A stretch of DNA of 64,000 nucleotides from Asticcacaulis aquaticus (GTDB lineage: Bacteria; Pseudomonadota; Alphaproteobacteria; Caulobacterales; Caulobacteraceae). Position numbers and translations under genes: made by a program. Of the stretch, positions 46,371-51,769 are shown piece by piece. The stretch is taken from assembly GCF_028550415.1 (NCBI RefSeq), contig NZ_JAQQKX010000005.1, positions 1 through 64,000 on the forward strand. The letters run 5' to 3'. The notes beneath the pieces are model-generated. The model was not told where the DNA came from. It made no database searches and saw nothing but the letters and a program-made list of their open reading frames with translations. Position 1 is the first letter of the stretch, and each line of letters starts with the position of its first letter.

Positions 46371-47333
46371 TCATAGTTCCGGTGTCGTGATGACCGCGCC
46401 CTGTGCCTCAAGCTGTTGCAACGCGCCGCCCTTGACCAGCAGGGCCGACAGCGGCAGGACGATCAGGCTCTTGCCGGGGGTTTTCAGCGCCGTATCGATG
46501 GACTCTACCGTCTGGGTCACCGTCTTGCCCAGCATGGCCGAGGTATTGGGCGCGCCTTCGAGACAGGCCAGCATGGCCGAGTCGGGCGACAGGCGCTGCA
46601 CGGTTTTCAGATCGCCGATGGCCCAGGCCTCCGTCGCGGCGCGTGAATGGGCCGTGGCGAATTCGATCTCGTCCAGAGTCGCGGCAACGCAGGCGTTTTC
46701 CTGCGCGGTCGTGAAGGCGTCGACCCGCCCGATGGCCTTGGCGACGGAGAAACTGCCGACGGGTTTCGTCTTGAGCTTCTTGTCCTTCGCGAAACGCAGC
46801 AGGGTCTTTTCCGGGTCACGCGTGGCGATGCCGACCTTGTCGTAGACGTCTTGGCGCAGGGCGGCCACGGCCCACAGGGGCGCGGATTTGCGGTACTTGG
46901 TTGCATCGAGCCCATGGGCGGCGGCCACCGCATTGAAGCGCGTGATCAGCGCGGGCGGCAGGACCTGATCGAGGGTCTTGCCCATCGGCAGGCCCTTGTT
47001 CAGTTGTAGTTTGGTGATGCCGATGATCCCGCCCTTGGCTTCGGGTGCGGTGAGCAGCACGTTGGACAGGCCGATGACGCGCTCGACACGGTTGGAGTTC
47101 CACGGAATGCGCTTGGTCATGACCGGCATGGCTCCGAGAATATAGACCTCGGACTCGCCCTTTTTCACCTTCCACAGGGCTGGGCCGGGCAGGCGCGCGG
47201 TGACCGTGACCTCGGTGATCCATTCCTCGCCGTCCCTGACGGCTGGGCCGGTGGTGATGGTTTCCTGCGCCTGAGCCGCCAGCGGCAGAAAGGCGAGCGA
47301 CGCAGCCAACAGGGTGGATTTGAGACAGGGCAT
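46371..47333 (-). CDS. Degenerate TraB/GumN-family exported protein
   Basis: This 320-residue protein has a signal peptide (MPCLKSTLLAASLAFLPLA, cleavage after AQA). It has the TraB/GumN layout, including ALWKVKKGESEVYILG and many helices to the C-terminus. The family motif GTxH, with the likely metal-binding His, reads GAMP here. It may therefore have lost the presumed hydrolase activity. GAGGACCCG precedes ATG 47333, so the longer frame to 47375 is unlikely. It is separated from the XRE gene by 70 bp. Confidence 0.75.
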   Translation of the reverse strand: MPCLKSTLLAASLAFLPLAAQAQETITTGPAVRDGEEWITEVTVTARLPGPALWKVKKGESEVYILGAMPVMTKRIPWNSNRVERVIGLSNVLLTAPEAKGGIIGITKLQLNKGLPMGKTLDQVLPPALITRFNAVAAAHGLDATKYRKSAPLWAVAALRQDVYDKVGIATRDPEKTLLRFAKDKKLKTKPVGSFSVAKAIGRVDAFTTAQENACVAATLDEIEFATAHSRAATEAWAIGDLKTVQRLSPDSAMLACLEGAPNTSAMLGKTVTQTVESIDTALKTPGKSLIVLPLSALLVKGGALQQLEAQGAVITTPEL

Positions 47334-47403
47334 GGTCGGGTCCTCACGGTCTTGCGCCGCAACATAAAGCCGCAAGACCTTGACCGGAATGGGGCAAGGC
47401 GAC

Positions 47404-47637
47404 TTATTCGTCTTTAGTGTTCAGATCGTCTTCGTCAGGCAGGTACTCGATGATGTCGGCGGGCTGACATTCGAGCAGGAAGCAGATCTTCGACAGGGTG
47501 TCGAAACGCATTCCCTTCACCTTGCCGGTGCGCAACAAAGACATCTGGGTTTCGGAGATGCCGACCTGCGCGGCGAGGTCCTTGGCCCGGACCTTGCGCC
47601 GCGCCAGCATGACATCGAGCGTTACGTTTATGGGCAT
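47404..47637 (-). CDS. XRE/Cro-family regulator (YozG-like)
   Basis: This 77-residue protein is one helix-turn-helix domain (VMLARRKVRAKDLAAQVGIS, ETQMSLLRTGKVKGM, FDTLSKICFLLECQP) with an acidic tail. It matches the small YozG-like regulators that usually accompany DUF2975 membrane proteins. ATG 47637 lies one base after the stop of the upstream gene; ATG 47652 inside that gene is also possible. It is the last gene of the five-gene operon and probably controls it. Confidence 0.85.
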   Translation of the reverse strand: MPINVTLDVMLARRKVRAKDLAAQVGISETQMSLLRTGKVKGMRFDTLSKICFLLECQPADIIEYLPDEDDLNTKDE

Positions 47638-47638
47638 G

Positions 47639-48070
47639 TCAGACGAAATCATCCGATTTGGATTTGAATGCTTTCAACTGGCTTGCGGCGAGGTGAAACA
47701 TCCCGCCCAGCGCAAAAAGCGTGAAACCGCTCGTATTGAAGGCGTCGTCAGATATTATCCATTTCTCTAAATAAAAGGCGAGCAAGCCGCCGAAGGCCAG
47801 GCATTGGCCCGCTCTCTTGAATGAAAGAATGAATTTATCCGCGTCTTTTTTCCAGATAATCGTACCTGACCCGAACCAGAGCGCGGCGGCGTAAAACAAG
47901 GCTGGGCATAGCTCTGCCAGGGATTTCGGCCCGGCAAGGTCGTGAATGTCCGGTACGGTTTTTGATACGAACAGGATATCCATACATGCACCCGCCAGCA
48001 GCAATACGGGCATTACAAGCCGGGCAATGAATATCTTGATCGGGCCATTGCCATAATAATGATCGTTCAT
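47639..48070 (-). CDS. Four-helix membrane protein, DUF2975-like (copy 4)
   Basis: This 143-residue protein has four predicted helices (about 12-30, 52-68, 86-105, 115-133). AALWFGSGTIIWKKD and SFKRAGQCLAFGGLLA align with the second-helix and linker motif of the three genes upstream. A cytoplasmic Lys-rich end follows. It shares TGATG with the copy before it. It is the most diverged copy and is AT-richer. It is likely an integral membrane partner of the XRE regulator one base downstream. Confidence 0.72.
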   Translation of the reverse strand: MNDHYYGNGPIKIFIARLVMPVLLLAGACMDILFVSKTVPDIHDLAGPKSLAELCPALFYAAALWFGSGTIIWKKDADKFILSFKRAGQCLAFGGLLAFYLEKWIISDDAFNTSGFTLFALGGMFHLAASQLKAFKSKSDDFV

Positions 48071-48585
48071 CAGATGATACCGTCCAGAATGGTTTTGTCG
48101 CGACGATGACGCTGGAATAGTGCATTGCCGTTGAAGCCGAAGGTTATGATGGCCAGCGCCAGAAAGCAGGTGCTCAGCCCTTCGGTGTAGTTAACCGACA
48201 GATGCAGCCGGCCCTCTGTCAGAAATCGGGCGATGAGGGGCATGCCCATGGACGCAAAACTGCTGAAAAGCAATAAAATGCCGCCGAAAACGATGCGCCG
48301 GGCGTTGTGGGCGCCAAACGGCATGGCCTTGTCGGTATAATAGCTGACGGCTGTGACAAACAGCCATAGGGCGGCGGCAAGAAACAGCCACGGCGCGACG
48401 ACGCTGGTCCATACAAGACTATCAAATACCGGCCCCGCTGGTTCCACGGCCGCGGCCCTGAAGGCGGCGATGAGTTCATGCTTCTGGCTATTGAATATCG
48501 GATATACTTGGCACAGGCCGATGAGGCTGAATATAATCGCCGTGAGACGTGAACCTGCTTTTGTCGTAGGCTTGGACCACTCCAT
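48070..48585 (-). CDS. Four-helix membrane protein, DUF2975-like (copy 3)
   Basis: This 171-residue protein has helices near 13-30, 60-85, 100-120 and 135-152. AALWLFVTAVSYYTDKAM and NARRIVFGGILLLFSS correspond to the motif of the other copies. The loop between helices 1 and 2 is longer (about 30 residues). The stop TGA overlaps the ATG of copy 4, and its ATG overlaps the TGA of copy 2, so both borders are coupled. Its base composition is AT-richer than copies 1 and 2. Confidence 0.72.
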   Translation of the reverse strand: MEWSKPTTKAGSRLTAIIFSLIGLCQVYPIFNSQKHELIAAFRAAAVEPAGPVFDSLVWTSVVAPWLFLAAALWLFVTAVSYYTDKAMPFGAHNARRIVFGGILLLFSSFASMGMPLIARFLTEGRLHLSVNYTEGLSTCFLALAIITFGFNGNALFQRHRRDKTILDGII

Positions 48586-49082
48586 CAGACGTACTGCTCC
48601 AGTTCGCTTTGCAGCGCGGTGCGGGCGGTCTGAAGATGCCGGATACGCCCGGCCACACCCATCAGGACCGCGCCCATCAATCCGGCGACCAGGGCGAACA
48701 ACACATAGTTGGCCGTACCCGGTGGTTGAGGACCTGTATTGTTATAGATGACCGTCCATACCCACGGGTTAACCTTGAGCCCCAGCGCCATACCACCAAG
48801 GATCAGGCCGGTGCCTGCCCGGCGAAGGCCACGGATGAGCACGGGTTCCAGCGGCATATCGGGGCGGACCCGGCCAATCATGTCGGCGGCGAACCATAGG
48901 GCGGCGGCGAAAAACACATAGGGCAGCAGGGGCAGGCCGCCTTGCAGGACGGCCAGCCCGAAAATATCGGGGCGCTGACCGACCAGCGTCCACAGTTTAG
49001 GCAACTGGACGAGGGTAAGGAGGGCCATGCTCGCGACGGGCAAGCCGACGAGCCATTTCAGGCTGACTGACATGAGGCGCAT
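48585..49082 (-). CDS. Four-helix membrane protein, DUF2975-like (copy 2)
   Basis: This 165-residue protein starts MRLMSVSLKWLVGLPVAS and has four helices (about 10-28, 45-68, 90-105, 125-145). The family motif is AALWFAADMIGRVRPDMPL then RGLRRAGTGLILGGMAL, similar to DUF2975. It ends ELEQYV, like ESYV in copy 1. ATG 49082 overlaps the TGA of copy 1. A longer frame would run through copy 1 in another frame and is not credible. Confidence 0.78.
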   Translation of the reverse strand: MRLMSVSLKWLVGLPVASMALLTLVQLPKLWTLVGQRPDIFGLAVLQGGLPLLPYVFFAAALWFAADMIGRVRPDMPLEPVLIRGLRRAGTGLILGGMALGLKVNPWVWTVIYNNTGPQPPGTANYVLFALVAGLMGAVLMGVAGRIRHLQTARTALQSELEQYV

Positions 49083-49573
49083 CAGACGTAGCTTTCCATC
49101 TCGGTTTGCAGCTTCGCCCCGGCCTGAGTGATCAGCCACAGCATCAGGCCGATGAGGCCGATGGTCAGGGGCTCGATCGCGAAGTCGTAGTGGATGCCGC
49201 GGAATCGATCTTCGAACATGACGGTCAGGGTCGGCATGATGACGATGGCGGCCACCGCGCCGTAGATCAGGTTCGACCCGACGTCCTTGAGCCCCCTGAC
49301 GACCGAAACCCCGAACCCTTCGCCCTTGTGCAGCCGCATGAACACCTCCGAGGCCGACCACAGGGCGGTCAGATAACAGATCGGCGCCAGCAGGCTGACC
49401 CAGAAGGACGGCAGCGCCATGCTGATCGTCAGCAGGGACACATGCACGAACGGATCGGGGTGCAGGTCGTTCAGCGGCGCGGCTTTTTCCACGACCAATC
49501 CGGCGGTGAGCAGGCCGACGGCGACCTTTGTGCCGATCCCGATCATATCGAGTGGCCATTTAGATATAAACAT
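49082..49573 (-). CDS. Four-helix membrane protein, DUF2975-like (copy 1)
   Basis: This 163-residue protein is the first gene of the operon. Helices lie near 10-29, 53-75, 98-119 and 132-152. TALWSASEVFMRLHKGEGF followed by VVRGLKDVGSNLIYG is the DUF2975-type signature (a Gly-x-x-Phe turn, then Arg-Leu-x-x-x-Gly). A full AGGAGG ribosome site lies 7 nt before ATG 49573 and a strong promoter lies just upstream, so this operon looks well expressed. Confidence 0.8.
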   Translation of the reverse strand: MFISKWPLDMIGIGTKVAVGLLTAGLVVEKAAPLNDLHPDPFVHVSLLTISMALPSFWVSLLAPICYLTALWSASEVFMRLHKGEGFGVSVVRGLKDVGSNLIYGAVAAIVIMPTLTVMFEDRFRGIHYDFAIEPLTIGLIGLMLWLITQAGAKLQTEMESYV

Positions 49574-49602
49574 GTGAACCCCTCCTGAATTAACATTAGG
49601 GG

Positions 49603-49632
49603 TATATAAATTTAAATAAAACTTAAAGTCAA
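49603..49632 (-). promoter_or_regulatory. Strong sigma-70-type promoter of the four-paralogue operon
   Basis: Reading the minus strand, TTGACT (49627-49632) and TATATA (49603-49608) are separated by 18 bp of nearly pure A/T, which includes the palindrome ATTTAAAT. The region is far AT-richer than its surroundings. The palindrome is a plausible site for the XRE regulator. Confidence 0.65.
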
Positions 49633-49761
49633 GCAGCGAATTAGGCACCCTCTGACAGGGTGCTCTGCGCGCTTTGCACGAAAAGACCTCGCCGGAAAAC
49701 GATCTTGCCAGACCCCCAAAAAATCCGATACTGCATAACGGAGCAACAAAGGACAGGCGCG

Positions 49762-50469
49762 GTGAGTGAAATCGAAAGACGGGGTTTGATCGTGACCGGC
49801 GCAGCCCTGATGGCCAGCGCTTTGGCAGGGTGTGAGAAGCCCGAACCGCCCAAACCGGCGGCCAGGCCCGCGCCGCCGCCCGCCCCGCCCAAGCCTCAGG
49901 CCGACGGCTCCGAAGGGATCACCGCCACGAAACTGCCGACCCCGCCTGATGTCGTCCACATCAGCCTGATGACGTCGATGGGTGAGATCGTCTTCGAGCT
50001 GGACGGCAAGCACGCGCCGATCTCGACGGCCAACTTCCTGCAATACGTCAATGCCGGTAAATTCACTGATGCCGAATTCTGGCGCGCCATGAAATCCGGC
50101 GCGGCAGACGGCGGCGGCTTCATCCAGATGTCGGCGACCGGGCATAAGTTTCCGCCGATCCCGCACGAAGCGACAACGAAGACCGGCCTGTCGCACACCA
50201 ACGGCACTCTGTCGACCGCGCGCTACGCCGTCGGCACGGCGTCGAACGAATTCACCATTTCCATCGGCGATATGAGCTATATGGATGCCGGACGCGACCC
50301 GTCGGGCGACAATCTCGGCTATGCCGCCTTTGGGAAGGTGGTGTCCGGCATGAGCATCGTGCGCAAGATCCTCAATGGCCGCATTTCCAAGGTCACCCGC
50401 GAAGGCGGCTGGGCCGGGCAGATGCTGGAAAAACCGGTAAAGATCCTGTCGGCGAAGCGGCTGGACTAG
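49762..50469 (+). CDS. Cyclophilin-type peptidyl-prolyl isomerase lipoprotein
   Basis: This 235-residue lipoprotein has a lipobox ALAGC (Cys near residue 20), followed by a Pro-rich linker of about 30 residues and a cyclophilin domain (about 70-230: TSMGEIVFELDGKHAPIST, NFLQYVNAG, GGFIQMS, LGYAAFGKVVSGM). The usual FHRVI block reads FWRAM, keeping the catalytic Arg, but much of the active site is diverged, so activity is uncertain. GTG 49762 has AAAGGA upstream. The LRR-kinase gene follows one base after the stop. Confidence 0.85.
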   Translation: MSEIERRGLIVTGAALMASALAGCEKPEPPKPAARPAPPPAPPKPQADGSEGITATKLPTPPDVVHISLMTSMGEIVFELDGKHAPISTANFLQYVNAGKFTDAEFWRAMKSGAADGGGFIQMSATGHKFPPIPHEATTKTGLSHTNGTLSTARYAVGTASNEFTISIGDMSYMDAGRDPSGDNLGYAAFGKVVSGMSIVRKILNGRISKVTREGGWAGQMLEKPVKILSAKRLD

Positions 50470-50470
50470 G

Positions 50471-51769
50471 ATGGTGCATACGCTTGCCCAGTTGCGTGCC
50501 GGGCATCTGGCCGGGGCGACGCAGTTGCACCTGTCCGAACCGCTCGACGGGTTTCCGGATGACATCTTCGCTCTGGCCGACACGCTGGAGGTGCTCGATC
50601 TTAATGGCACCGGGCTGTCGGCCCTGCCGGACGATCTGCACCGGTTGCACCGGCTGCGGATTCTGTTCTGTTCCAATAACGCCTTTACCGAATTGCCCAA
50701 AGGACTGGGGGCGTGCCCGTCCCTGAGCATGATCGGGTTCAAGAGCAACCGCATCCGTAGCGTACCGCCTGAATCCTTGCCGGAAGGCTTGCGCTGGCTG
50801 ATCCTGACCGACAATGAAGTTGAAGCCTTGCCTGACAGCATTGGGCGTTGCACGGCTCTGCAAAAATGTATGCTGGCCGGCAATGAAATATCGTTACTTC
50901 CGGAATCAATGAAAAATTGCACGTCGCTGGAATTGCTGCGCCTGTCGGCCAACAGGTTCGACGTGCTGCCGGATTGGCTGTGCGACCTGCCGCGGCTGTC
51001 GTGGCTGGCCTTTGCGGGCAATCCGTTTTCGACGGCGGCCGAAGCGCAGGCCCTGACCGATCCGGCCATCGAAACCGTCCCCTGGGCCGAGCTTGATTTG
51101 GACGACAGACTGGGCGAAGGCGCATCCGGCGTTATTTACCGCGCCCGCTATCGCAGCGGGACCGTGGCCGTGAAGCTGTTTAAGGGCGGCATGACCAGCG
51201 ACGGTCTGCCGCAAAGTGAGATGGCCGCCTGCCTGTCGGCGGGCCGTCATCCGCATCTCATCCCGATCCGGGGGCGGGTGTGCGACCACCCGCAGTCGAC
51301 CCCGGTTCTGGTCATGGACCTGATCGATCCGGCCTTCACGACTCTGGCCGGACCGCCCAGTTTCGCGACCTGCACCCGTGACGTTTATGCGCCGAGCCTT
51401 CGGCTGGAAACCGCCGCGATCGTCAGGATGTTGCAAGGGCTGGCATCGGCGGCGCAGCATCTGCACAGCAAGGGCGTGATGCACGGTGACTTCTACGGCC
51501 ACAATATCCTGCACGATGGCCGGGGCGCGGCGCGGCTCGGCGATTTCGGCGCGGCGTCCTTCTACGCGACCGGCACCGCCCGGTTCGAGCGGCTCGAAGT
51601 GCGCGCCTTCGGCTGCCTGATCGAGGAATTGCTGACCCTTTGCGAAGACGCGCCACTGGCATTGATCGCATTGAAAGCGGCCTGCCTCGCACCCGATCCG
51701 GCCGAACGACCGTTGTTCGCCGACATCCATACCGCACTTGCAGCAGAAGCGGTTAACCTGCAAAATTAA
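50471..51769 (+). CDS. Leucine-rich-repeat protein kinase
   Basis: This 432-residue protein has an N-terminal run of about eight leucine-rich repeats (residues 30-190: LEVLDLNGTGLSALPDDL, LRILFCSNNAFTELPKGL and so on). A eukaryotic-like kinase domain follows (about 205-425) with the Gly loop LGEGASGVIYRA, VAVKLFKG (Lys), HGDFYGHNIL as catalytic loop and DFG kept. The HRD Arg is replaced by Gly and the activation segment is short. It starts one base after the cyclophilin stop, so the two are an operon. No membrane helix is present. Its targets are unknown. Confidence 0.88.
   Translation: MVHTLAQLRAGHLAGATQLHLSEPLDGFPDDIFALADTLEVLDLNGTGLSALPDDLHRLHRLRILFCSNNAFTELPKGLGACPSLSMIGFKSNRIRSVPPESLPEGLRWLILTDNEVEALPDSIGRCTALQKCMLAGNEISLLPESMKNCTSLELLRLSANRFDVLPDWLCDLPRLSWLAFAGNPFSTAAEAQALTDPAIETVPWAELDLDDRLGEGASGVIYRARYRSGTVAVKLFKGGMTSDGLPQSEMAACLSAGRHPHLIPIRGRVCDHPQSTPVLVMDLIDPAFTTLAGPPSFATCTRDVYAPSLRLETAAIVRMLQGLASAAQHLHSKGVMHGDFYGHNILHDGRGAARLGDFGAASFYATGTARFERLEVRAFGCLIEELLTLCEDAPLALIALKAACLAPDPAERPLFADIHTALAAEAVNLQN

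Follow-up and report, generated by a model that had tools for sequence, protein, structure and literature searches.

A four-copy array of DUF2975-like membrane protein genes with a putative XRE autoregulator in Asticcacaulis aquaticus

DUF2975 (PF11188) is a domain of unknown function on which almost no literature was found, and the literature searched held no study of the pair formed by DUF2975 and XRE genes. YoaS is presumably a DUF2975 protein, with YozG as its partner. In the parts of Makarova et al. 2009 (PMC2701414) drawn on here, a YoaS-like/Xre combination is listed among conserved pairs and membrane pairs are set aside, and the portion of PMC7827011 that concerns a Streptomyces cluster places a DUF2975 gene beside a helix-turn-helix gene. 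LytTR Regulatory Systems (HdrRM and BrsRM) are described, in the sections of PMC6193735 considered here, as two-part operons that encode a membrane protein together with a small DNA-binding regulator acting on its own promoter. Here, we describe a locus of Asticcacaulis aquaticus in which four tandem genes encoding membrane proteins, g1 to g4, precede a gene encoding an XRE regulator (Table 1); it lies in a stretch of 64,000 nucleotides (contig NZ_JAQQKX010000005.1 of assembly GCF_028550415.1, positions 1 to 64,000), hereafter the window. An earlier note on this DNA, made from the sequence alone, knew of no account of a four-copy form, and the literature searched likewise contained no description of such an array.

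It is proposed that the locus is an autoregulated membrane-receptor module, in which XRE represses its own operon and is itself controlled by the membrane proteins, a reading that we consider probable while leaving considerable room for others. Comparison of related sequences supports the operon layout, an operator in the operon's own promoter, the agreement of operator and recognition helix, a shared C-terminal tail and selection on all copies; repression, contact between tail and XRE, signal sensing and the role of g3 and g4 are what we infer. XRE would bind a 17-bp dyad filling the spacer that separates the presumed -35 and -10 hexamers and, so bound, would most likely repress the operon, as judged from this position only. 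The membrane proteins would sit in the inner membrane with both termini inside, as their charges suggest, and expose to the cytoplasm loop 2-3 and the tail E-[LNM]-[DE]-x-[FIY]-[VI]-COOH, a face that may bind or release XRE, the state of the membrane or a ligand deciding between the two and thereby setting the level of the operon. With their full tails, g1 and g2 would be the core partners. The g3 and g4 proteins appear to be additions of this lineage, also present in Asticcacaulis sp. YBE204 and kept by selection; without an acid at position -6, they probably modulate or pair with g1 and g2 instead of docking the regulator as those two would. Co-regulation may extend to the TraB/GumN-like protein encoded immediately 3' of XRE.

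The operator was examined across 25 Asticcacaulis genomes (G000 being that of the window), 21 of which encode an XRE orthologue (E <1e-34), a close orthologue being missing in G003, G020, G021 and G024. In the window and in G012, a 30-base promoter/operator element precedes the g1 start by 59 bases. With the window 30-mer as probe, it was recovered with 0-5 substitutions from each of the 21 genus loci, located 59-157 bases upstream of the first membrane gene and whatever membrane genes come next. Among the 24 regions probed, G105 and G077 also gave the element, with 6 substitutions, and G088 did not. A pattern derived from these sites, with up to 3 mismatches allowed, gave a single match, always at this locus, in each of those 21 genomes out of the 25; there was no second site in any of the 25 genomes and none in the four lacking a close orthologue, and the reversed-pattern control gave 0 matches in the same set. 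As the pattern was written from these loci, the new information is the lack of a second site and of any site in the four genomes without a close XRE orthologue. The earlier note had cast the regulator as the sensor output of a membrane complex, which is corrected here: the sole strong XRE target site found, a predicted one, is the promoter of its own operon. A wider regulon was sought with the core dyad, at up to 1 mismatch, and rejected, the 58 strand matches in the 25 genomes (operators included) falling below the 76 of the reversed control.

The strongest evidence that XRE reads its own promoter is the agreement between predicted operators and recognition helices. In a survey of 74 upstream regions for dyads with perfect 7-bp arms, such arms were found at spacers of 3, 5, 7 and 9 in 15, 17, 20 and 12 loci, respectively, and at spacers of 4, 6, 8 and 10 in 3, 3, 2 and 4 loci (shuffle means 1.2-1.9). 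Half-sites were then sorted in 73 of the 74 loci (L001 dropped), of which 56 could be classed: sites of the TTTAAGT type, for which the expression was loose and tried first, go with the XRE helix SETQ in 41/41 loci, TTAT[TC]G[TC] sites with T[EL]AN in 14/14, and a TTCATGT site with SEQN in one. The other 17 of the 73 carry SETQ (7), TETQ (1), TEAN (6) or other helices (3). In a later sample of 20 phylum loci, hand-chosen from the DUF2975 list of the phylum sample, perfect dyads were present in 5, where TTATCG or TTATTG sites accompany TEQN, TPQN, TEAN and TIAN, only TEAN belonging to the earlier class, and a TTCATGT site again accompanies SEQN. The operator alphabets TTTAAGT, TTATYGT and TTCATGT with their matching helices (upstream regions of L120-L159 and L160-L179) are an observation in their own right, hinting that HTH_26 regulators may follow a small specificity code.

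The C-terminal tail was compared in 101 proteins. Every one ends in V, I or L; position -2 is I, F, Y, M or T in 100, position -4 is D or E in 90 and position -6 is E or D in 94, the two g3 (I) and the two g4 (K) proteins being among the 7 exceptions at -6. All four features are present in g1 and g2; the g3 tail ILDGII and the g4 tails KSDDFV and KSDGFV retain those at -4, -2 and -1. Conservation over the 101 proteins is greatest in the last six residues (0.62) and least in periplasmic loop 1 (0.21). Loop 2-3 is the richest in lysine plus arginine (3.9 per protein), which fits a topology with both termini inside. As the tail is retained without any overlap with the next gene, for example across gaps of 47 bases in G105 and 60 bases in G077, it is not merely a trace of overlapping start signals. 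In 20/20 phylum loci, the family gene is followed on its own strand by an XRE gene (in L179, past the second copy), and in each the DUF2975-like protein has V or I as its last residue and an acid at -6. With regard to motifs, the A-L-W noted earlier in all four proteins proved invariant in the eight aligned copies (four from the window, four from L033), and the R-x3-G motif is better rendered as L-x3-G, L95 and G99 (g1 numbering) being the two invariant columns among 23 family members. The four helices per protein of the earlier note are likely, least certainly for g4: a Kyte-Doolittle scan at a single threshold gave 4, 3, 4 and 2 strong segments for g1, g2, g3 and g4.

On sequence comparison, all four membrane proteins are paralogous and DUF2975-like, in line with the paralogy, the DUF2975 kinship and the partnership with an XRE regulator claimed earlier. 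Both g1 and g2 fall below the PF11188 gathering cut-off of 27 bits, g3 and g4 were not listed for PF11188 at E up to 1 in the Pfam scan, and an NCBIfam scan gave no match for any of the four. Profile-profile comparison returned 96.8% for g1-g2, 91.1% for g2-g4 and 67.4% for g1-g4, with g3 reaching only 16.8% against g1 and 4.3% against g2. A family model was built from 46 XRE-partner proteins with g3 and g4 left out and recovered both, in the window and in G012 (30.4 bits for g3, 18.6 for g4), the best of 1000 shuffles scoring 7.7 bits; among 58 other membrane open reading frames (ORFs), only two exceeded the shuffles, both themselves family members. Against shuffles and unrelated membrane proteins, g3 and g4 are thus detectable as members of the DUF2975-like XRE-partner family as defined here. 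Within the genome of the window, alignment A1 (23 rows, likewise without g3 and g4) picks out g4 (E 1.5e-4) and does not list g3; the kinship of g4 to the family is firm, and that of g3 good and weaker than that of g4. Weak Pfam matches of g3 to UPF0220 (10.5 bits, E 0.44) and of g4 to T4SS_CagC (15.1 bits, E 0.026) are far below cut-off and were taken as chance.

The serial duplication proposed earlier fits g4, which groups with the g2 clade and one further row in a tree of the 101 proteins (97/92). It is less apt for g3, whose branch is 2.5 changes per column long and stands beside canonical DUF2975 proteins (94/88), the tree program warning that the placement of long rows is unsure; losses from the array are visible alongside gains. 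The ratio of nonsynonymous to synonymous substitution rates (dN/dS) between G000 and G012 is 0.16 for g1, 0.23 for g2, 0.20 for g3 and 0.18 for g4, with 0.09 for XRE and 0.16 for the TraB-like protein. The values of 0.16-0.23 indicate that all four are kept as proteins under purifying selection and are not chance ORFs, and together with the family-model scores they rule out g3 or g4 as unrelated genes or false ORFs. Separately, comparing the two genomes with four copies gives a synonymous rate (dS) of only 0.09 for g2 (48585-49082 vs L034:5120-5617) against 0.30-0.51 for g1, g3, g4, XRE and the TraB-like gene, as though a more recent exchange had affected g2.

Copy number varies widely within the genus. 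Four copies are found in 2 of the 25 genomes (G000 and G012), two in 8 and one in 11, the other 4 having no close XRE orthologue. The two-copy arrays consist of g1 and g2 in G023, G011, G001, G016 and G009, of g1 and another gene, X, in G022, and of g1 and g1b in G007 and G010; the single copy is g1 in G006, G005, G008 and G015, g2 in G019, G014, G004, G013 and G002, a diverged one in G018 and X in G017. A 24-residue remnant of g1 persists in G019, and a remnant of the g1 end in G004, the same stretch being readable 5' of g2 in G014, G013 and G002. In the named-genome scan with g1, the single locus was that of Asticcacaulis sp. YBE204 (L033, the same contig and place as G012; g1 91% identical), and g1 matches were found in 33/119 genomes, its own included. 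A many-helix membrane gene directly 5' of the array occurs in six relatives (L035:6714-7388, L036:6220-6894, L037:4783-5457, L038:5552-6226, L039:6266-6940 and L051:4755-5693) and is absent from the window; it encodes 224 residues in five and was read as 312 in L051.

Searched against the 25 whole genomes, g3 was found in its own and in G012 (E 2e-96), with one further weak fragment in G007 (E 0.02); in an order sample of 299 genomes it matched itself and, weakly, 29 others (E 2.4e-4 or worse), nearly all as fragments inside much longer frames. An orthologue of g4 is present in G012, the remaining genus genomes having been checked at array loci only, and the order sample returned g4 itself and g2, all else at E 0.005 or worse. 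Neither g3 nor g4 matched plasmids, and an origin outside the genus was set aside, with nothing convincing in the order sample or in plasmids. The short-frame g4 candidates in G073 and G132 were also rejected, their loci showing neither family genes nor XRE genes. Alignment A1 matched 185/299 order genomes; among the matches listed, 40 loci were inspected, 29 with one and 11 with two adjacent family genes before XRE and none with three or four (a separate weak family match 0.9 kb away in L147 is uncounted). In the phylum sample, DUF2975 was found in 60/398 genomes, the only adjacent pair among the matches listed being that of G075. The order and phylum searches would miss copies as diverged as g3, and longer arrays are possible elsewhere; within this scope, the rarity claimed earlier for the four-copy form holds.

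The tandem layout described earlier was confirmed, all three borders between the membrane genes reading TGATG. An HTH_26-type XRE gene stands immediately 3' of g4, its ATG at 47637 lying one base past the g4 stop as previously described; a start at the earlier in-frame ATG (47652) would make XRE overlap g4. As had been noted, AT content is higher in the distal copies, with a G+C content (GC) along g1-g4 of 0.61, 0.63, 0.56 and 0.50 in total and 0.86, 0.76, 0.67 and 0.60 at third codon positions. A consensus scanner returned 6 promoter-like sites (shuffles 1.1) and 4 terminator-like sites (shuffles 3.6); the conserved promoter is not among them, as it departs from the scanner's rule for the second hexamer.

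Table 1. Features of the g1-g4/XRE locus and its downstream neighbour (window coordinates).
Feature	Coordinates	Strand	Description
Promoter/operator TTGACTTTAAGTTTTATTTAAATTTATATA	49603..49632	-	30 bp; candidate -35 TTGACT (49632-49627), candidate -10 TATATA (49608-49603), 18-bp spacer
Putative XRE operator dyad TTTAAGT-TTT-ATTTAAA	49611..49627	-	17 bp, 7-N3-7, 6/7 pairs; between presumed -35 and -10
Shine-Dalgarno AGGAGG of g1	49581..49586	-	From sequence
g1	49082..49573	-	163 aa, DUF2975-like membrane protein; PF11188 24.9 bits vs cut-off 27
g2	48585..49082	-	165 aa, DUF2975-like membrane protein; PF11188 18.1 bits; orthologues within genus
g3	48070..48585	-	171 aa, diverged paralogue; 26.6 bits to family model built without g3
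g4	47639..48070	-	143 aa, diverged paralogue of g2 lineage; 25.5 bits to model built without g4
XRE, putative autoregulator	47404..47637	-	77 aa, HTH_26, recognition helix SETQMSLL; PF13443 79.3 bits (scored on longer 82-aa reading)
Hairpin between XRE and TraB-like gene	47348..47379	-	Without T-run
TraB/PrgY/GumN family protein	46371..47333	-	PF01963 100.5 bits; apparent signal peptide (by eye); gap 70 bp

The TraB/PrgY/GumN gene is possibly part of the same operon. The hairpin preceding it was dismissed as a notable feature, the z-score of -0.94 for the 70-base stretch not being unusual. A TraB-like gene adjoins the XRE orthologue in 13/21 genomes, and a TraB-like paralogue follows a second DUF2975-XRE pair in G001, G006 and G023, near relatives that may count as one event. 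With 8 genomes carrying the module without it, the TraB-like protein is at most an optional, and possible, functional partner. On the other side, a cyclophilin-type peptidyl-prolyl isomerase gene (49660-50469) diverges from the array and is near it in 8/21 loci, the window included; beyond it, 50471-51769 encodes leucine-rich repeats followed by a protein-kinase-like domain, a combination that seemed unusual for a bacterium.

Several observations weigh against the proposal of an autorepressing receptor module. A regulator bound in the spacer is possibly an activator instead of a repressor, and the promoter-like matches inside the operon at 47677 and 48101 suggest that g4 or XRE might own separate promoters. 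With regard to the operator, both the pattern and the site classes were drawn up with the sites already in view, related loci are not independent, and weaker XRE targets could be missed by the site search. Perfect arms also occur at spacers of 0, 1 and 2 in 7, 5 and 10 loci (shuffle means 2.4, 1.9 and 1.6), and, as spacers 0 and 2 exceed the shuffles, the odd/even contrast holds only from 3 upward. No perfect dyad was found at the three spacers tested in 15 of the 20 phylum loci, among them L162, which has a SEQN helix, and G024 encodes a more distant XRE relative (E 8e-21) without the operator of the window. Contact between tail and XRE is suggested by conservation; among g1 orthologues alone (n=14), the tail (0.55) is unexceptional beside other parts (0.30-0.68), and the g3 and g4 tails are degenerate. 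Long helices are seen in the AlphaFold models of g1 and g3, at low confidence (predicted local distance difference test, pLDDT, 55 and 52).

Three other explanations were weighed. XRE may be a mere homeostatic repressor of an operon for a membrane enzyme or permease, making no contact with its products, the real function lying in transport or envelope maintenance and being shared with the TraB/GumN-like protein. The single own target would suit this, as would the TraB/GumN-like neighbour in 13/21 genomes and its paralogue at the second pair of three related ones; direct contact is nevertheless suggested by the constant downstream, same-strand position of XRE in the 20 phylum loci together with the shared tail, and 8/21 genomes carry the module without the TraB-like gene, leaving this explanation rather unlikely. 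The idea that g1-g4 form one hetero-oligomer of fixed stoichiometry, such as a transporter or channel, whose state XRE reports to other genes, draws on the overlapping TGATG junctions, which suggest coupled translation, and on purifying selection on all four. It appears improbable in view of the 19/21 module-bearing genus genomes in which a nearly unchanged operator and regulator accompany one or two copies, the loss of g1 or g2 in several genomes and the absence of a second operator-pattern match in all 25. Less probable still is a toxin-antitoxin-like or selfish module, in which over-made membrane proteins would be harmful and XRE an autorepressing, antitoxin-like partner: a compact autoregulated layout, fast turnover, a single own target and the listing of YoaS-like/Xre among conserved pairs, membrane pairs aside, in the parts of Makarova et al. 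2009 (PMC2701414) drawn on here would all agree with it, whereas the shared neighbours (TraB-like gene 13/21, cyclophilin gene 8/21 loci) favour a stable locus and g3 and g4 were not found in plasmids.

Within the autoregulated receptor module that we favour, operator, helix match and conserved tail would recast an unknown membrane family as a regulatory circuit that can be tested, and the series of one, two and four copies in one genus would be a natural experiment on adding receptors to a switch. More speculatively, and with clearly less confidence, DUF2975/XRE modules may be a distinct and widespread class of membrane-to-promoter signalling, with their own promoter as sole target and read out through the C-terminal tail; in Asticcacaulis, the regulator and operator would be nearly frozen and the receptors subject to birth, death and fast divergence, several converging on one autorepressor, with the four-receptor array as the extreme.

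The nearest worked-out analogue is the LytTR Regulatory Systems, to go by the sections of PMC6193735 considered here, with which the locus shares a two-part operon and a regulator that, here putatively, acts on its own promoter. The regulator of the window is an HTH_26 XRE protein and not of the LytTR family, and its putative site is an inverted repeat between -35 and -10, in contrast to the direct repeats upstream of -35 given there for LytTR; such direct repeats are not apparent in the upstream regions, from which this was judged with no dedicated search for them. The position of the inverted repeat predicts repression and not LytTR-like positive feedback, and by regulator type and operator position the locus is not a LytTR Regulatory System. 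The same genome holds a second pair (L001; G000:C4:146513), a DUF2975 protein (41.6 bits) followed by an XRE-like gene, which differs from the array in being single-copy, in passing the Pfam cut-off and in a regulator only 33% identical to that of the window. With the DUF2975 (PF11188)/XRE pair in general, the locus has in common a small multi-helix membrane protein encoded 5' of a small XRE regulator and a tail with the terminal V or I and the acid at -6 seen in all 20 phylum loci; it differs in having four diverged copies, none above the Pfam cut-off, rather than one or two. The four-copy locus is a new form of the uncharacterised DUF2975-XRE pair.

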